From Burkholderiales bacterium (GTDB lineage: Bacteria > Pseudomonadota > Gammaproteobacteria > Burkholderiales > Nitrosomonadaceae), in assembly GCA_015075225.1 (NCBI GenBank), contig JABTUQ010000002.1, positions 124,001 to 188,000 of the forward strand: a DNA stretch of 64,000 nt, given 5' to 3'. Made by a program: the position numbers and the translations under genes. Of this stretch, positions 57,076 to 60,954 are shown piece after piece. The number at the start of each line of letters is the position of its first letter. Positions within the stretch are counted from its first letter, which is position 1. A model generated the notes under the pieces. It was not told where the DNA came from and ran no database searches. It was given only the letters and a program-made list of their open reading frames with translations.

Positions 57076-57092
57076 GACTAATTTTCCTTTAG

Positions 57093-57232
57093 AAAGCCTT
57101 TGAAAAACGACCTGCGTTGTCATTTTTGTGTTAAAAATCGGCTCAAAATGCTCATTTATTACGGATAAACTCCGCTTTTTCTCTGATTTTTTCCTTGAAC
57201 TGACTGCCTTGCTAACGTTTTTCAGAGGTTTC
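57093..57232 (-). mobile_element. 140-bp MITE-like element, copy 1
   Basis: The element lies between the epimerase and sugar-transferase genes and is flanked by TTAG on both sides (57089-57092 and 57233-57236). Read on the minus strand it starts GAAACCTCTGAAAAAC and ends with a degenerate inverted copy of that sequence. It is the same length as copy 2 and differs at about 15 of 140 positions without indels. It has no room for a transposase. It supplies the present stop codon of the epimerase gene. Confidence 0.85.
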
Positions 57233-58160
57233 TTAGCTTGTGATACCACTGCGCCGTCAGCGCCAAACCTGCCTGCATGCTCCACGGTGGTTGCCAATCC
57301 AGCGCGTGCTGTATGGGCGTACCATCGACCGCCAGTGATCCAGTCAGACGTGCTACAGCGGCTTGCCTGCCCGAGATGCTTCCCACCCATTTGATCCAGG
57401 AGACAGGCACAGGTACAAGTAGTGGTTTGCGATCCAGCGCGGCAGCTATCCGGCGGAGTAGCTCGGGCGTGGAAACATCCTCGCCATCGCTCAGCATGAA
57501 TGTCTTTCCAGCAGCGCCAGGGTGGGACAAACATAGCCGGATGGCATCTACCAGATTGCCCAGATAAATCAGACTGCGCCGGTTATGAATCGCCCCCAGA
57601 GGCAGCGGCATTCCTCGATCCATCGCCTGCAACAGCCGGAAGAAATTACCCTTCACACCAGGCCCATACACCAGTGGCGGGCGCAGAATGACTACTTCCA
57701 TCCCGGTTTCAGCTGATATTTGCCAAAGCGATTGCTCAGCCTCCCATTTCGAAATGGCATAGGCATCATCCGGCACAGCCAGATCATCTGTCTGATAGCG
57801 CTCATCTTGACCTTCGCCCAGCACTTTCACCGTGCTGACGAAAACAAATCGCCTGACACCTTTTGCTGCGCATTCCCGCGCCAGATGAATGGTTCCCAGC
57901 GTGTTCACCTGATAGCATGAATCAGCTGTTTCCGATCCTTTTTCGCCGGATGATAACTGGCCAGCCAGATGGACTACGCTATTGACATCCGCAGTAAGCG
58001 CCGTGCTCCAGTCCGTTTTTTCATTCACATCACCCACTGAAACTTCCTGGGGATTGGTGGATGCGCGCACCGCACGAACGACCCGGAAACCGGTTTCTTC
58101 CAGCATTGGGCATAACATCTGGCCAACAAAACCATTTGCACCTGTAACAAGTACATTCAA
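57222..58160 (-). CDS. NAD-dependent sugar epimerase/dehydratase
   Basis: This extended short-chain dehydrogenase modifies nucleotide sugars. The 312-residue product has the Rossmann motif VTGANGFVGQML near the N-terminus and the YAISK catalytic pair. HLAGQLSSGEKG is also present, with a C-terminal half typical of UDP-glucose 4-epimerase relatives. The exact sugar is not predictable. The last three codons and stop come from the inserted 140-bp element. Without the insertion the frame would read HKLKEN and stop two bases before the sugar-transferase ATG, so the two genes formed a coupled pair. Confidence 0.88.
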   Translation of the reverse strand: MNVLVTGANGFVGQMLCPMLEETGFRVVRAVRASTNPQEVSVGDVNEKTDWSTALTADVNSVVHLAGQLSSGEKGSETADSCYQVNTLGTIHLARECAAKGVRRFVFVSTVKVLGEGQDERYQTDDLAVPDDAYAISKWEAEQSLWQISAETGMEVVILRPPLVYGPGVKGNFFRLLQAMDRGMPLPLGAIHNRRSLIYLGNLVDAIRLCLSHPGAAGKTFMLSDGEDVSTPELLRRIAAALDRKPLLVPVPVSWIKWVGSISGRQAAVARLTGSLAVDGTPIQHALDWQPPWSMQAGLALTAQWYHKLRNL

Positions 58161-58537
58161 CGTTAATTACTCCATCAGCAAAAGTTTCTGGCGGGCGCCT
58201 CGAATTACCCGCGATGTTCAATTGTTCTGGCTTTCTGGTTACCGGACGATGCCTCCGCCCAAATCAGATACAGGTTGCTCCTTTCCAGGAATCTACTGCC
58301 TTTCGGGCAGAATTCCTCCTGTCTGGAAGTACGCCAGCCGCTCCAGATTGTAGCAAGCCACCATCATCGCCATTACAAAGTTAGTATCTGCTGGTCGTGT
58401 TCATGATCAAACGGGTTTTTTCAGGCGGTAAAGTGATCTTGTAACCTGTTTCACAGCCATTTCGCGCCTCTGATGAATGATTTGGGTTAAATTCTTTCAG
58501 GGAAAACGCTTTATCTGCCTGACATTTACTGGATGAC
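58161..58537. other. relic-rich intergenic region
   Basis: This 377-bp gap between the epimerase and ggt contains a transposase-like C-terminal remnant (58293-58400, minus strand). A 52-codon minus-strand frame (58381-58539) is of no recognisable family. The rest carries no gene that I can support. The region, together with the two 140-bp elements, marks a place of repeated insertion. Confidence 0.45.
58293..58400 (-). pseudogene. transposase C-terminal remnant
   Basis: A 35-codon minus-strand frame ends NFVMAMMVACYNLERLAYFQ then TGGILPERQ and stop. The NFVMAMMVACYNLxRL pattern resembles the C-termini of DDE transposases. It is cut off upstream by an in-frame stop, with no catalytic motifs left. 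The IS family cannot be assigned from this piece. Confidence 0.45.
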
Positions 58538-60482
58538 ATGAAACTGAAAACAGGAAATCTATCTTTGGAACCTCTGAAAAACGTCAGTGAGGCAGTCAAT
58601 TCAAGGAAAAAATCGGAGAAAAAACGGAGTTTATCCGTAATAAATGAGCATTTTGAGCCAATTTTTAACGCAAAAATGACAACGCAGGTAGCTTTTCAGA
58701 GGTTCCCTTTGTTCGTTCGCGCTTTCTTTTTGCTGGCAAGTAACCTGTTTCTGATCCTGCTGGCGGCCTGCAATACAGTTCCCGCTGTTCAGCAGGCAAA
58801 TATCCCGCCGGTATCACCGCCTGCTGTGGTGGCTGCCACAGCCTACGATTGGGATATGGATATATTCCATCCTGTTGTGGCGCGTCATGGCATGGTGGCA
58901 ACCGAACAAAAACTGGCTTCAAAAATCGGTCTGGAGGTGCTCAAGGCTGGTGGCAATGCGATTGATGCTGCTGTCGCCATTGGTTTTGGCCTGGCAGTGG
59001 CGTTACCCAACGCGGGCAACATTGGCGGAGGTGGTTTCATGCTGGTTTATGATGCCAGAACCGGGCGCACAACTGCGCTTGATTTCCGCGAAATGGCGCC
59101 GGCAGCTGCCACTCGCGATATGTATCTGGATGCGGCGAAAAATGTGATTGAAGGCCAATCGCTTTACAGTCACGCTGCTGTTGGTGTTCCGGGCACTGTG
59201 GCTGGACTGGCGCATGCCCTGGAGCGATGGGGTTCCATGCCTCTGGCAGAAGTCATGCAACCGGCAATCATGTTGGCGCAAAAAGGCTATATGGTCAGTG
59301 AAACCCTTGCTAAAGGCTTGCGATACGCTGCGGATAACATGAAAAAATGGTCGGCGACCCGGGCAATCTTCTGGAAAAATGGCGCTCCTCTGAAAGCCGG
59401 TGACAGGTTGGTACAGAAAGATCTGGCCGAAACATTGCAATTGATAGCACGCGATGGCGCCAGGGCATTTTATGAGGGAGAGCTTGCGCACAAAATTGCT
59501 GCCGACATGGCCAGTAACGGCGGCCGGATAACGCTTGAGGATCTCAAAAACTATCGGGTGATCGAGCGAGAGCCGGTGCGCGGCACCTATCGCGGTTACG
59601 AGATTGTCACCATGCCGCTTCCTTCCTCGGGTGGCATTCATCTGGTGCAAATACTCAATATGATGGAACGCTGGCCACTCAGGGATTGGGGGCATAACAG
59701 CGCTTTGACTATCCATCACATGACTGAGGCCATGAAACTGGCTTACGCGGATCGCTCCCGATATCCGGGAGATCCGGATTTCATCAAAATCCCGCTTGCC
59801 GGTCTGATCAGCAAATCCTATGCCGAGGCGCTGGCATTACAGATTGACCCGGATCACGCCCGCTCTGCTGATGACATCAAGCCCGGCCAGCCGCAATCAC
59901 ATGAAAGCAACCAAACCACTCATTTCTCGGTGGTGGATTCGGTTGGCAACATGGTTGCCGCCACCTACACGCTCAACACCAATTTTGGCAGTGGCATTGT
60001 TGTACCGGGCACAGGCGTCGTGCTCAATAACGAAATGGATGATTTTTCGGTTAAACCCGGCGTACCCAATGTCTACGGCGTCATTGGCGGTGATGCCAAT
60101 GCCATTGAAGCGGGCAAGCGGCCGCTTTCATCCATGACACCCACGTTTGTTTTCAAGGATGGCAAACCGAGACTGGTGACAGGCAGTCCTGGCGGGCCGC
60201 GCATTATTACCACGGTTTTGCAGCAAATCGTGAACAGTATCGATTTTGCTATGAACCCGGCTGAAGCAGCATCGGCTGCCCGGTTTCATCATCAGTGGAC
60301 ACCGGATGAATTGCGGATGGAAAAAGGCTTCTCACCCGATACCATGCGTCTTTTGCGGGAAAAGGGCCATCACATCGTGATCAAAGCTACCATGGGTCGT
60401 ACCCAGACCATCCAGGTGCACAATGATGAACCAGGGCTATTCCGATCCACGCAATCCGGATGGAGAAACCATGGGATTTTAA
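58538..60482 (+). CDS. ggt: gamma-glutamyltransferase lipoprotein with in-frame MITE insertion; C-terminal frameshift
   Basis: GGT hydrolyses or transfers the gamma-glutamyl group of glutathione in the periplasm. The conserved parts match E. coli GGT: VARHGMVATEQ, GGNAIDAAVA, GNIGGGGFM, the nucleophile in SNQTTHFSVVD (Thr460 of the long form), NNEMDDFSVKPGVPN, GSPGGPRIIT. The N-terminus begins MKLKTGNLSL, is interrupted by 48 codons from the 140-bp element plus its 4-bp duplication, and continues FVRAFFLLASNLFLILLAAC, a lipoprotein signal. An extra C at 60431-60432 shifts the last 16 codons. Without it the protein ends SDPRNPDGETMGF at 60482; as written it runs to 60565 with an unrelated tail overlapping the next gene. 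Confidence 0.88.
58567..58706 (+). mobile_element. 140-bp MITE-like element, copy 2, inside ggt
   Basis: The element has perfect 14-bp terminal inverted repeats, GGAACCTCTGAAAA and TTTTCAGAGGTTCC, and is flanked by CTTT at 58563-58566 and 58707-58710. It is open in the ggt frame, encoding a basic segment (SRKKSEKKRSLSVINEHFEP). Insertion plus duplication is 144 bp, exactly 48 codons. Copy 1 lies 1.3 kb away in opposite orientation. Confidence 0.9.
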
Positions 60483-60537
60483 TTTTTGTTTGCCGGCCTG
60501 GCTGCAGGATGTGCAGGTGGCGTGCCGCTGGTGTTTA

Positions 60538-60954
60538 TCAGAGCCAGCGTCTGACTCTGGTTTGATAGTCCCGGTAGGGTTCCCCGAATCGGGCTTCGAG
60601 GTGAGCTTCTTCATGGCGGATGACGCCGTAGCGCAGCATTACCCAGATCAACGGTGAAAAGAGCAGTGGCCACCAGGTTGATAACAACATCGAGGTGCCG
60701 GTGAAAATCAGCCAGTCTCCCAGATAAATCGGGTTGCGGCTGTAGTGGAACGGCCCGGTGGTGCACAGGCTGGAGGCGGCTTTGTAGGGATTGACGGTGG
60801 TTCGGTGGTACCAGAACGTAATGGCAGTCCATACCATCAGTACCAGTCCTGTGATGATGCCCAGCCAGCCCAGTACCAGTGAGGCTGCGCCCAGTTCAGT
60901 GTAGCGGCTGGAGGTTGCGATCAATCCACCAGCCGGCAAGGATGGCTGCAGCAT
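60538..60954 (-). CDS. isoprenylcysteine carboxyl methyltransferase-like membrane protein
   Basis: The 138-residue product has three to four membrane helices and the C-terminal motif of the ICMT/PEMT-like family: GPFHYSRNPIYLGDWLI, then RHEEAHLEARFGEPYRDYQTRVRRWL. These enzymes methylate small molecules or lipids with SAM, and the bacterial substrates are mostly unknown. It converges with ggt. The overlap with the aberrant ggt tail disappears if the ggt frameshift is corrected. Confidence 0.88.
   Translation of the reverse strand: MLQPSLPAGGLIATSSRYTELGAASLVLGWLGIITGLVLMVWTAITFWYHRTTVNPYKAASSLCTTGPFHYSRNPIYLGDWLIFTGTSMLLSTWWPLLFSPLIWVMLRYGVIRHEEAHLEARFGEPYRDYQTRVRRWL

Follow-up and report, generated by a model that had tools for sequence, protein, structure and literature searches.

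A MITE-type element with a conserved folded core most likely separates the Shine-Dalgarno sequence from the TTG start codon of a gamma-glutamyltransferase gene in a Nitrosomonadaceae genome

The window analyzed here is a stretch of 64,000 nucleotides of contig JABTUQ010000002.1 from a Burkholderiales bacterium of the Nitrosomonadaceae. The host genome (G000) comprises 2,483,958 bases in 19 contigs and is 95.5% complete. Two matches to the ammonia mono-oxygenase (AMO) family were found in it, compared with none in 14 control genomes, and by these matches G000 looks like an ammonia oxidizer, presumably a Nitrosomonas. The window contains the gene ggt, a MITE-type element at its 5' end and a second copy of the same element nearby. 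The features, in window positions, are as follows.

58709..60565, + strand: ggt, encoding a gamma-glutamyltransferase that carries a lipoprotein-type signal; its 3' end departs from the reading frame of the orthologues
58709..58711, + strand: TTG, most likely the native start codon of ggt, as judged from three same-genus orthologues
58552..58555, + strand: displaced native Shine-Dalgarno (SD)-like AGGA, 9 nt before TTG in the empty site and now 153 nt away
58538..58540, + strand: upstream in-frame ATG, the start assumed in the original prediction; upstream of the native SD
58567..58706, + strand: MITE-type element of 140 bp, oriented like ggt; at least 92 copies called in G000
58563..58566, + strand: left target site duplication (TSD) CTTT, deviating from the family consensus YTAR
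58707..58710, + strand: right TSD CTTT, the last TT forming positions 1 and 2 of the start codon
58567..58580, + strand: left terminal inverted repeat (TIR) GGAACCTCTGAAAA, 14/14 complementary
58693..58706, + strand: right TIR, containing CAGAGG, exact complement of the left TIR
58608..58617, + strand: left arm of the inner stem, a covarying helix; 8/10 positions paired in the ggt copy
58657..58666, + strand: inner stem, right arm of the covarying helix
58630..58634, + strand: small core hairpin, left arm, with covariation
58640..58644, + strand: small core hairpin, right arm, with covariation
58699..58702, + strand: SD-like GAGG contributed by the right TIR, 6 nt before TTG; duplex energy -7.0 kcal/mol
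57093..57232, - strand: second copy, at the 3' end of an epimerase-like gene (57222-58160, - strand); TSD TTAG at 57089-57092 and 57233-57236

The original prediction of a MITE-type insertion with target duplication at ggt was borne out, as the 140-bp element has perfect 14-bp TIRs and CTTT on both sides. It differs from the family consensus at 9 of 140 positions, and its own ATG lies at 58676. The TIR of the second copy supplies the present stop codon of the epimerase-like gene and separates this gene from the following sugar transferase gene. The epimerase-like gene lies between the two copies, which are oppositely oriented.

In order to locate the native start of ggt, orthologues were sought in 45 other same-genus genomes (36 + 9) out of 84. 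Close orthologues were present in only three of the 45, namely L112 (G020, 83%), L113 (G001, 80%) and L222 (G105, 75%), and the remaining matches in these genomes showed 37-44% identity. In all three orthologues, GGAGG or AGGAG precedes, by 7-8 nt, a TTG that aligns with TTG 58709-58711. In L113, the frame is closed by a TAA six codons ahead of this TTG, and neither ATG, GTG nor TTG occurs between them; hence, the L113 TTG must be the start. L112 and L222 have upstream in-frame start codons, ATGs among them, that lack the support seen for the TTG; in G020 and G105, the TTG is therefore not the sole candidate start but the likely one. The signal peptide up to the lipobox cysteine is 21 residues long in all three orthologues, and the same length results from TTG 58709 (LFVRAFFLLASNLFLILLAAC). 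The comparison with related strains for an empty site, which had been proposed along with the prediction, gave a consistent picture: the ggt flanks without the element align with the three orthologues. Since the SD and TTG positions of the orthologues and their 21-residue signal peptides match, the insertion is placed between the SD and the start codon. Thus, the 140-bp element most likely separates the native SD from the native TTG of ggt and does not lie within the protein. The insertion had been assigned to the N-region of the signal peptide, a placement contradicted by the most likely native start at 58709, to the right of the insert. The lipoprotein signal proposed to be rejoined upon removal of the element is present, with 21 residues to the cysteine; the segment MKLKTGNLSL, taken as its N-region, instead spans the native SD, because the 21-residue signal begins at TTG.

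The strength of the old and new SD was estimated as the best duplex with the canonical 16S tail, for which we assumed the commonly used sequence. The duplex energy was -4.6 kcal/mol for the empty site and -7.0 kcal/mol for the present site, compared with -10.1, -8.8 and -8.5 kcal/mol for the orthologues. As references, 300 random positions had a mean of -4.3 kcal/mol, with the best tenth below -7.3 kcal/mol, and 33 called genes had a median of -5.8 kcal/mol. The empty-site SD is close to the random mean, and the new SD does not exceed the best tenth of random positions. These calculated energies mark the empty-site SD as weak and the new one as middling. The element itself folded with a z-score of -3.5, and none of 200 shuffled sequences folded as well. 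The unpaired probability of the new SD was 0.009 and 0.015 in modelled transcripts with both TIRs and 0.053 and 0.026 in those without the left TIR. The AGGA of the empty site also had a low unpaired probability (0.138). As the new SD was paired even without the left TIR, the TIR stem is not the sole structure hiding it; the SD in the right TIR is predicted to be mostly base-paired, its burial not being due to the TIR stem alone. A pattern scan of 58200-58760 revealed no sigma-70-type promoter.

Alternatively, ggt might be decaying, with the insertion at its start merely tolerated and the SD-like sequence of the TIR an unused coincidence. The 3' end of ggt (60380-60565) is out of frame relative to the orthologues, and the C-terminal SDPRNPDG kept by those compared is readable here in another frame. 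In addition, the displaced SD is weaker than those of the orthologues, and private codon changes on the window branch were 10 nonsynonymous to 22 synonymous versus 9:60 on the two sister branches pooled (p = 0.053). However, the L222 branch shows an equal ratio (23:51), and the rest of the ORF is undamaged, its 562 shared codons showing mainly synonymous changes. Decay is a serious contender, if not the favored one.

The element at ggt belongs to a numerous family. With one mismatch or none, the 14-mer of the TIR occurred 65 + 65 times in the 2.48-Mb host genome, while its reversed control did not occur. A profile derived from 30 copies was applied to host-genome stretches around 100 of the 130 TIR sites, and at least 92 copies were called, 80 of them full length and mostly about 140 bp; the 12 partial copies were excluded from full-copy counts. 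A longer class of about 200 bp carries an extra stretch inside the same ends (e.g., L170, L171, L194, L212). Identical 4-bp flanks were found for 30 of 71 copies with unshifted ends (mean of 5.8 and maximum of 15 in 2000 shuffles), and 49 of the 71 had YTAR on one or both sides, the ggt copy itself having CTTT. Thus, the family is short, lacks a transposase gene and has TIRs, TSDs and many dispersed copies, as is typical of MITEs.

According to our own gene caller, the 80 full copies comprised 53 intergenic ones, 15 at stop codons, 11 in coding sequences (CDS) and one at a start, the ggt copy being counted in the CDS group only via the call of ATG 58538. Insertions at YTAR sites avoided CDS (6/53, versus 94/150 YTAR sites in the window), and any preference for stop codons was marginal (p = 0.048). 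Some of the 15 copies overlapping a stop codon duplicate it, and in two relatives 5 of 20 sampled copies (L252, L253, L260, L262, L266) also overlapped a stop codon. For no other host copy, and for none of the 20 copies sampled from G063 and G020, was a start codon called at SD distance from a TIR; the one other host copy classed at a start (C3:10306) has uncertain ends.

A candidate source of the transposase was found among insertion sequences (IS) of the genus. An IS5-group IS has a TIR like GGAANCTCTGAA and YTAR flanks, as does the element, both ends being found for L226 and L228 and one end for L225. The L226 transposase, a DDE enzyme, matches NF033581 (349 bits) and PF01609/PF05598, i.e., the IS5 family, and a transposase of this kind occurred in 17 of 85 genus genomes, including G000 (E-value threshold of 1e-20). 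The host genome contains one degraded IS5-group copy (L149/L224) with the end GGAACCTCTGAATA and the flank CTAA. The element TIR agrees with L149 at 13/14 positions at one end and with L225, the G020 copy, at 12/12 positions at one end; the second ends of L149 and L225 were sought and not found. The element differs from this IS group in lacking a transposase, and only its outermost 12-13 bp or so are shared with the IS copies. Nevertheless, the TIR and target likeness suggests that the element is probably mobilized in trans by an IS5-group transposase. Two other candidates were discarded: L139 (TIR GGCACCTCTAAAAA) was dropped in favor of L149/L225, and an IS lying beside MITEs, which we take to be IS427-like, proved at L137 to be a different IS inserted into a MITE end. 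This IS, with a transposase in two frames, was observed inside or beside MITEs at L137, L136, L138 and L140, at L137 as if the MITE end were a favored target.

When the window copy was used as query, matches were obtained in 70 of 85 genus genomes, including G000. Among the matches listed, those outside G000, G063, G064, G020 and G013 mostly covered positions 9-132 only; thus, the core is shared and the ends are not. A common other end type in the genus is CAGGCCGTTGAAAAAC, also at YTAR-like sites. From 65 copies, 62 of them distinct (alignment A1), a covariance model was built, which matched 100 of 274 genomes of the class, representing 85 of 222 genera and including G000 (E-value threshold of 1e-4, the E-values being rough); two same-order genomes listed had no match to the model. 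Of 29 new class loci, 27, i.e., 27 genomes in 24 genera, were found again and read, and L375 and L378 were dropped because nhmmer did not find them again. The core reads CAAGGC-AAAAnnnnGCGAAAAAGCGnAGTTTACnnnnnGTAAATGAGCATTTTGAGCnnnnTTTTAACGC. By eye, the ends of the 27 loci were CAGGCTGTTGA-like in 12 cases, window-like (GGAACC or GGAGCC, then TCTGA) in two and of other types in 13, for example CTACTGTGTCACAAAG, GAGCGCTTTGCACGAA and GAGGCTGTCCGAGA. The two ends of a locus matched each other at 14 or more of 18 positions in 25 of the 27 loci, compared with 1 of 1550 shuffled trials; the exceptions were L391 (13/18) and L395 (11/18). As read from these alignments, this is an element family in which a putatively folded core is kept and the terminal repeats are of several unlike types.

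Related elements were also found on plasmids of P. veronii and Halomonas; a plasmid of Candidatus Fukatsuia matched 41% of the query. A 43-base core pattern was present in three IMG/VR contigs. In an IMG/VR contig (L399:574-760), an intact core is accompanied by an end, GGCACCTCTAAAAACG, that is similar to the TIR of the IS5-like L139. Two element queries gave no blastn match in phage or in 5,426 E. coli genomes. Rfam gave no match for the window copy (E-value up to 1), six loci (gathering score) or seven class loci (E-value up to 0.1).

The core was then analyzed for compensatory base changes, which exceeded those of the controls, as expected for a structured RNA. In A1, 94.0% of the inner-stem cells were paired, compared with 85.3% in shuffles and up to 58.2% in slid controls, and 8 of 10 pairs were changed on both sides (shuffled mean of 3.7). 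A second alignment (A2) comprised 31 sequences, i.e., the 27 class loci, the window copy, a same-genus copy of the other end type and the plasmid copies from P. veronii and Halomonas. It was produced by MAFFT without structure, although loci found with the model lean towards the model. In A2, the inner stem was paired in 96.4% of cells (71.6% in shuffles), and in 70 cells both sides had changed (versus 16.3 in shuffles and at most 16 in slid controls), all 31 inner stems being distinct. The small hairpin was paired in 99.4% of cells, with 13 cells changed on both sides (1.6 in shuffles); the observed number of pairs changed on both sides was reached by 22 of 500 shuffles. The inner stem of A2 contained 17 GU, 2 AC and 9 other mismatches (p = 0.0007, a value weakened by the cells being non-independent events). 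In A1 plus 30 more copies, the GU:AC ratio was less sharp, with 60:34 in the stem versus 92:96 in the TIR (p = 0.022). Judged against shuffles, the sense core folded better than the antisense core in 25 of the 31 sequences. The covarying stem and the GU:AC ratio of 17:2 point to an RNA-like fold of one strand, the strand co-linear with ggt.

The orientation of the element was scored where both flanking called genes lay within 300 bp and were co-directional. In the host genome, 20 copies were sense and 4 antisense (p = 0.0015). A test set in advance on other same-genus copies (75 sites from 80 stretches, consisting of full elements with 400-bp flanks and distinct flanks) yielded 15 sense versus 6 antisense (two-sided p = 0.078), and G063 and G020 yielded 4 versus 2. 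In other genera, no bias was seen, with 9:7 among the 27 loci, for which the gene caller was trained on the ggt window. No called gene pair lay within 300 bp at 37 of the 75 same-genus sites and 9 of the 27 class loci. Thus, the sense bias was clear in the host genome, suggestive in the genus and not seen outside it.

Instead of acting as RNA, the conserved core may be a DNA feature such as a cruciform or a palindromic protein site used in transposition. The core lies inside a transposon-like element, the TIRs of which must co-vary for transposase reasons, and the orientation bias is absent in other genera. On the other hand, pairing is kept while the stem sequence changes from one sequence to the next, and the sense core outfolds the antisense core. 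The excess of GU over AC is not given by a duplex DNA site, although a folded single DNA strand would also fit. A DNA function of the core is thus somewhat unlikely, and an RNA-like fold remains the preferred reading.

It had also been proposed that the element adds 48 Lys/Arg-rich residues to the signal N-region of the enzyme, with translation starting from ATG 58538 or from ATG 58676. Element plus duplication (140 + 4 = 144 nt, i.e., 48 codons) is indeed stop-free in the frame of a 675-aa ORF (58538-60565), exactly as predicted. The open frame, however, is that of the element family: only one of the six frames of the consensus is open, the same one as in the ggt ORF, and among 55 of the 80 full copies (those of 136-143 bp) 19 were open in it, compared with 2 to 6 in the other five frames. 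The stop-free frame at ggt needs no selection, since it belongs to the family. With an open frame in just 19 of the 55 copies, selection for an open reading frame in the element was rejected. The SD of ATG 58538 is weak (-3.6 kcal/mol), and in-frame ATGs also occur upstream in L112 and L222, but ATG 58676 has no SD at all (+0.9 kcal/mol), which argues against translation from the element. As the strong SDs of the three orthologues precede a TTG downstream of the insert, L113 precludes any upstream ATG, GTG or TTG start and the 21-aa signal peptides agree, the addition of 48 residues is improbable. An assembly artefact, conceivable for a draft genome of 19 contigs, is highly improbable, since the copies have their own flanks and sequences and the ggt copy deviates from the consensus.

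Among known elements, the ERIC elements of enterobacteria are short folded imperfect palindromes that are mostly intergenic. They are enterobacterial, whereas the E. coli genomes contained no match to the two element queries, and we know of no ERIC elements with several terminal repeat types around one core. By ends and target, the nearest described element that was met is MITEPsy1 of Pseudomonas syringae, a 100-nt element with the 18-nt TIR GGAAGGTCTGAAAAAGCC for which transposition was shown (PMC3189936). Like the family described here, it is short, lacks a coding gene, has a TIR with TCTGAAAAA and a 4-nt duplication at CTAG or YTAA, and its terminal repeats resemble those of the IS5-family ISPsy2 (PMC3189936). 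It differs in length (100 nt versus about 140 bp), and the parts of that report consulted, compared here by ends and target only, describe no covarying core (PMC3189936). Rickettsia palindromic elements are likewise about 150 bp long, each with an open frame, and insert into genes in frame; according to a review, nearly half lie inside ORFs, compared with 11 of 80 here (PMC10969869). Frequent in-frame insertion into ORFs, as in the Rickettsia type, was not found among the 80 full copies. A literature search returned no description of the element family, and the core strings occurred in no paper searched.

Taken together, the following explanation is favored, with a probability of roughly 0.7. 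A non-autonomous element some 140 bp long, which an IS5-group transposase probably mobilizes in trans and which carries a folded core found class-wide, inserted between the SD and the TTG start codon of ggt. Its sense strand would fold as RNA within a read-through transcript, and the right TIR would give ggt a new, mostly paired SD. Translation would then start from the old TTG at a reduced rate, or mainly upon opening of the fold, and the lipoprotein N-terminus would be unchanged.

The feature at ggt is real, and its notable part is the element itself more than the effect on ggt. More tentatively, the family may represent a class-wide mobile RNA, with a core of about 70 nt in more than a third of the sampled genomes, that swaps TIR sets and IS vehicles and acts at ggt as a movable translation switch; this broader view is less likely than not. 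If it is true, the SD of ggt was taken away and replaced by one within the element stem. The ggt case is also a warning for annotation, as the longest ORF adds a false extension of 57 residues and conceals the TTG start. Bacterial MITEs are usually defined by their ends, while the core may be anything. A kept core makes it testable whether the element is a working RNA, an aid to transposition or a device that lowers the harm to neighboring genes.
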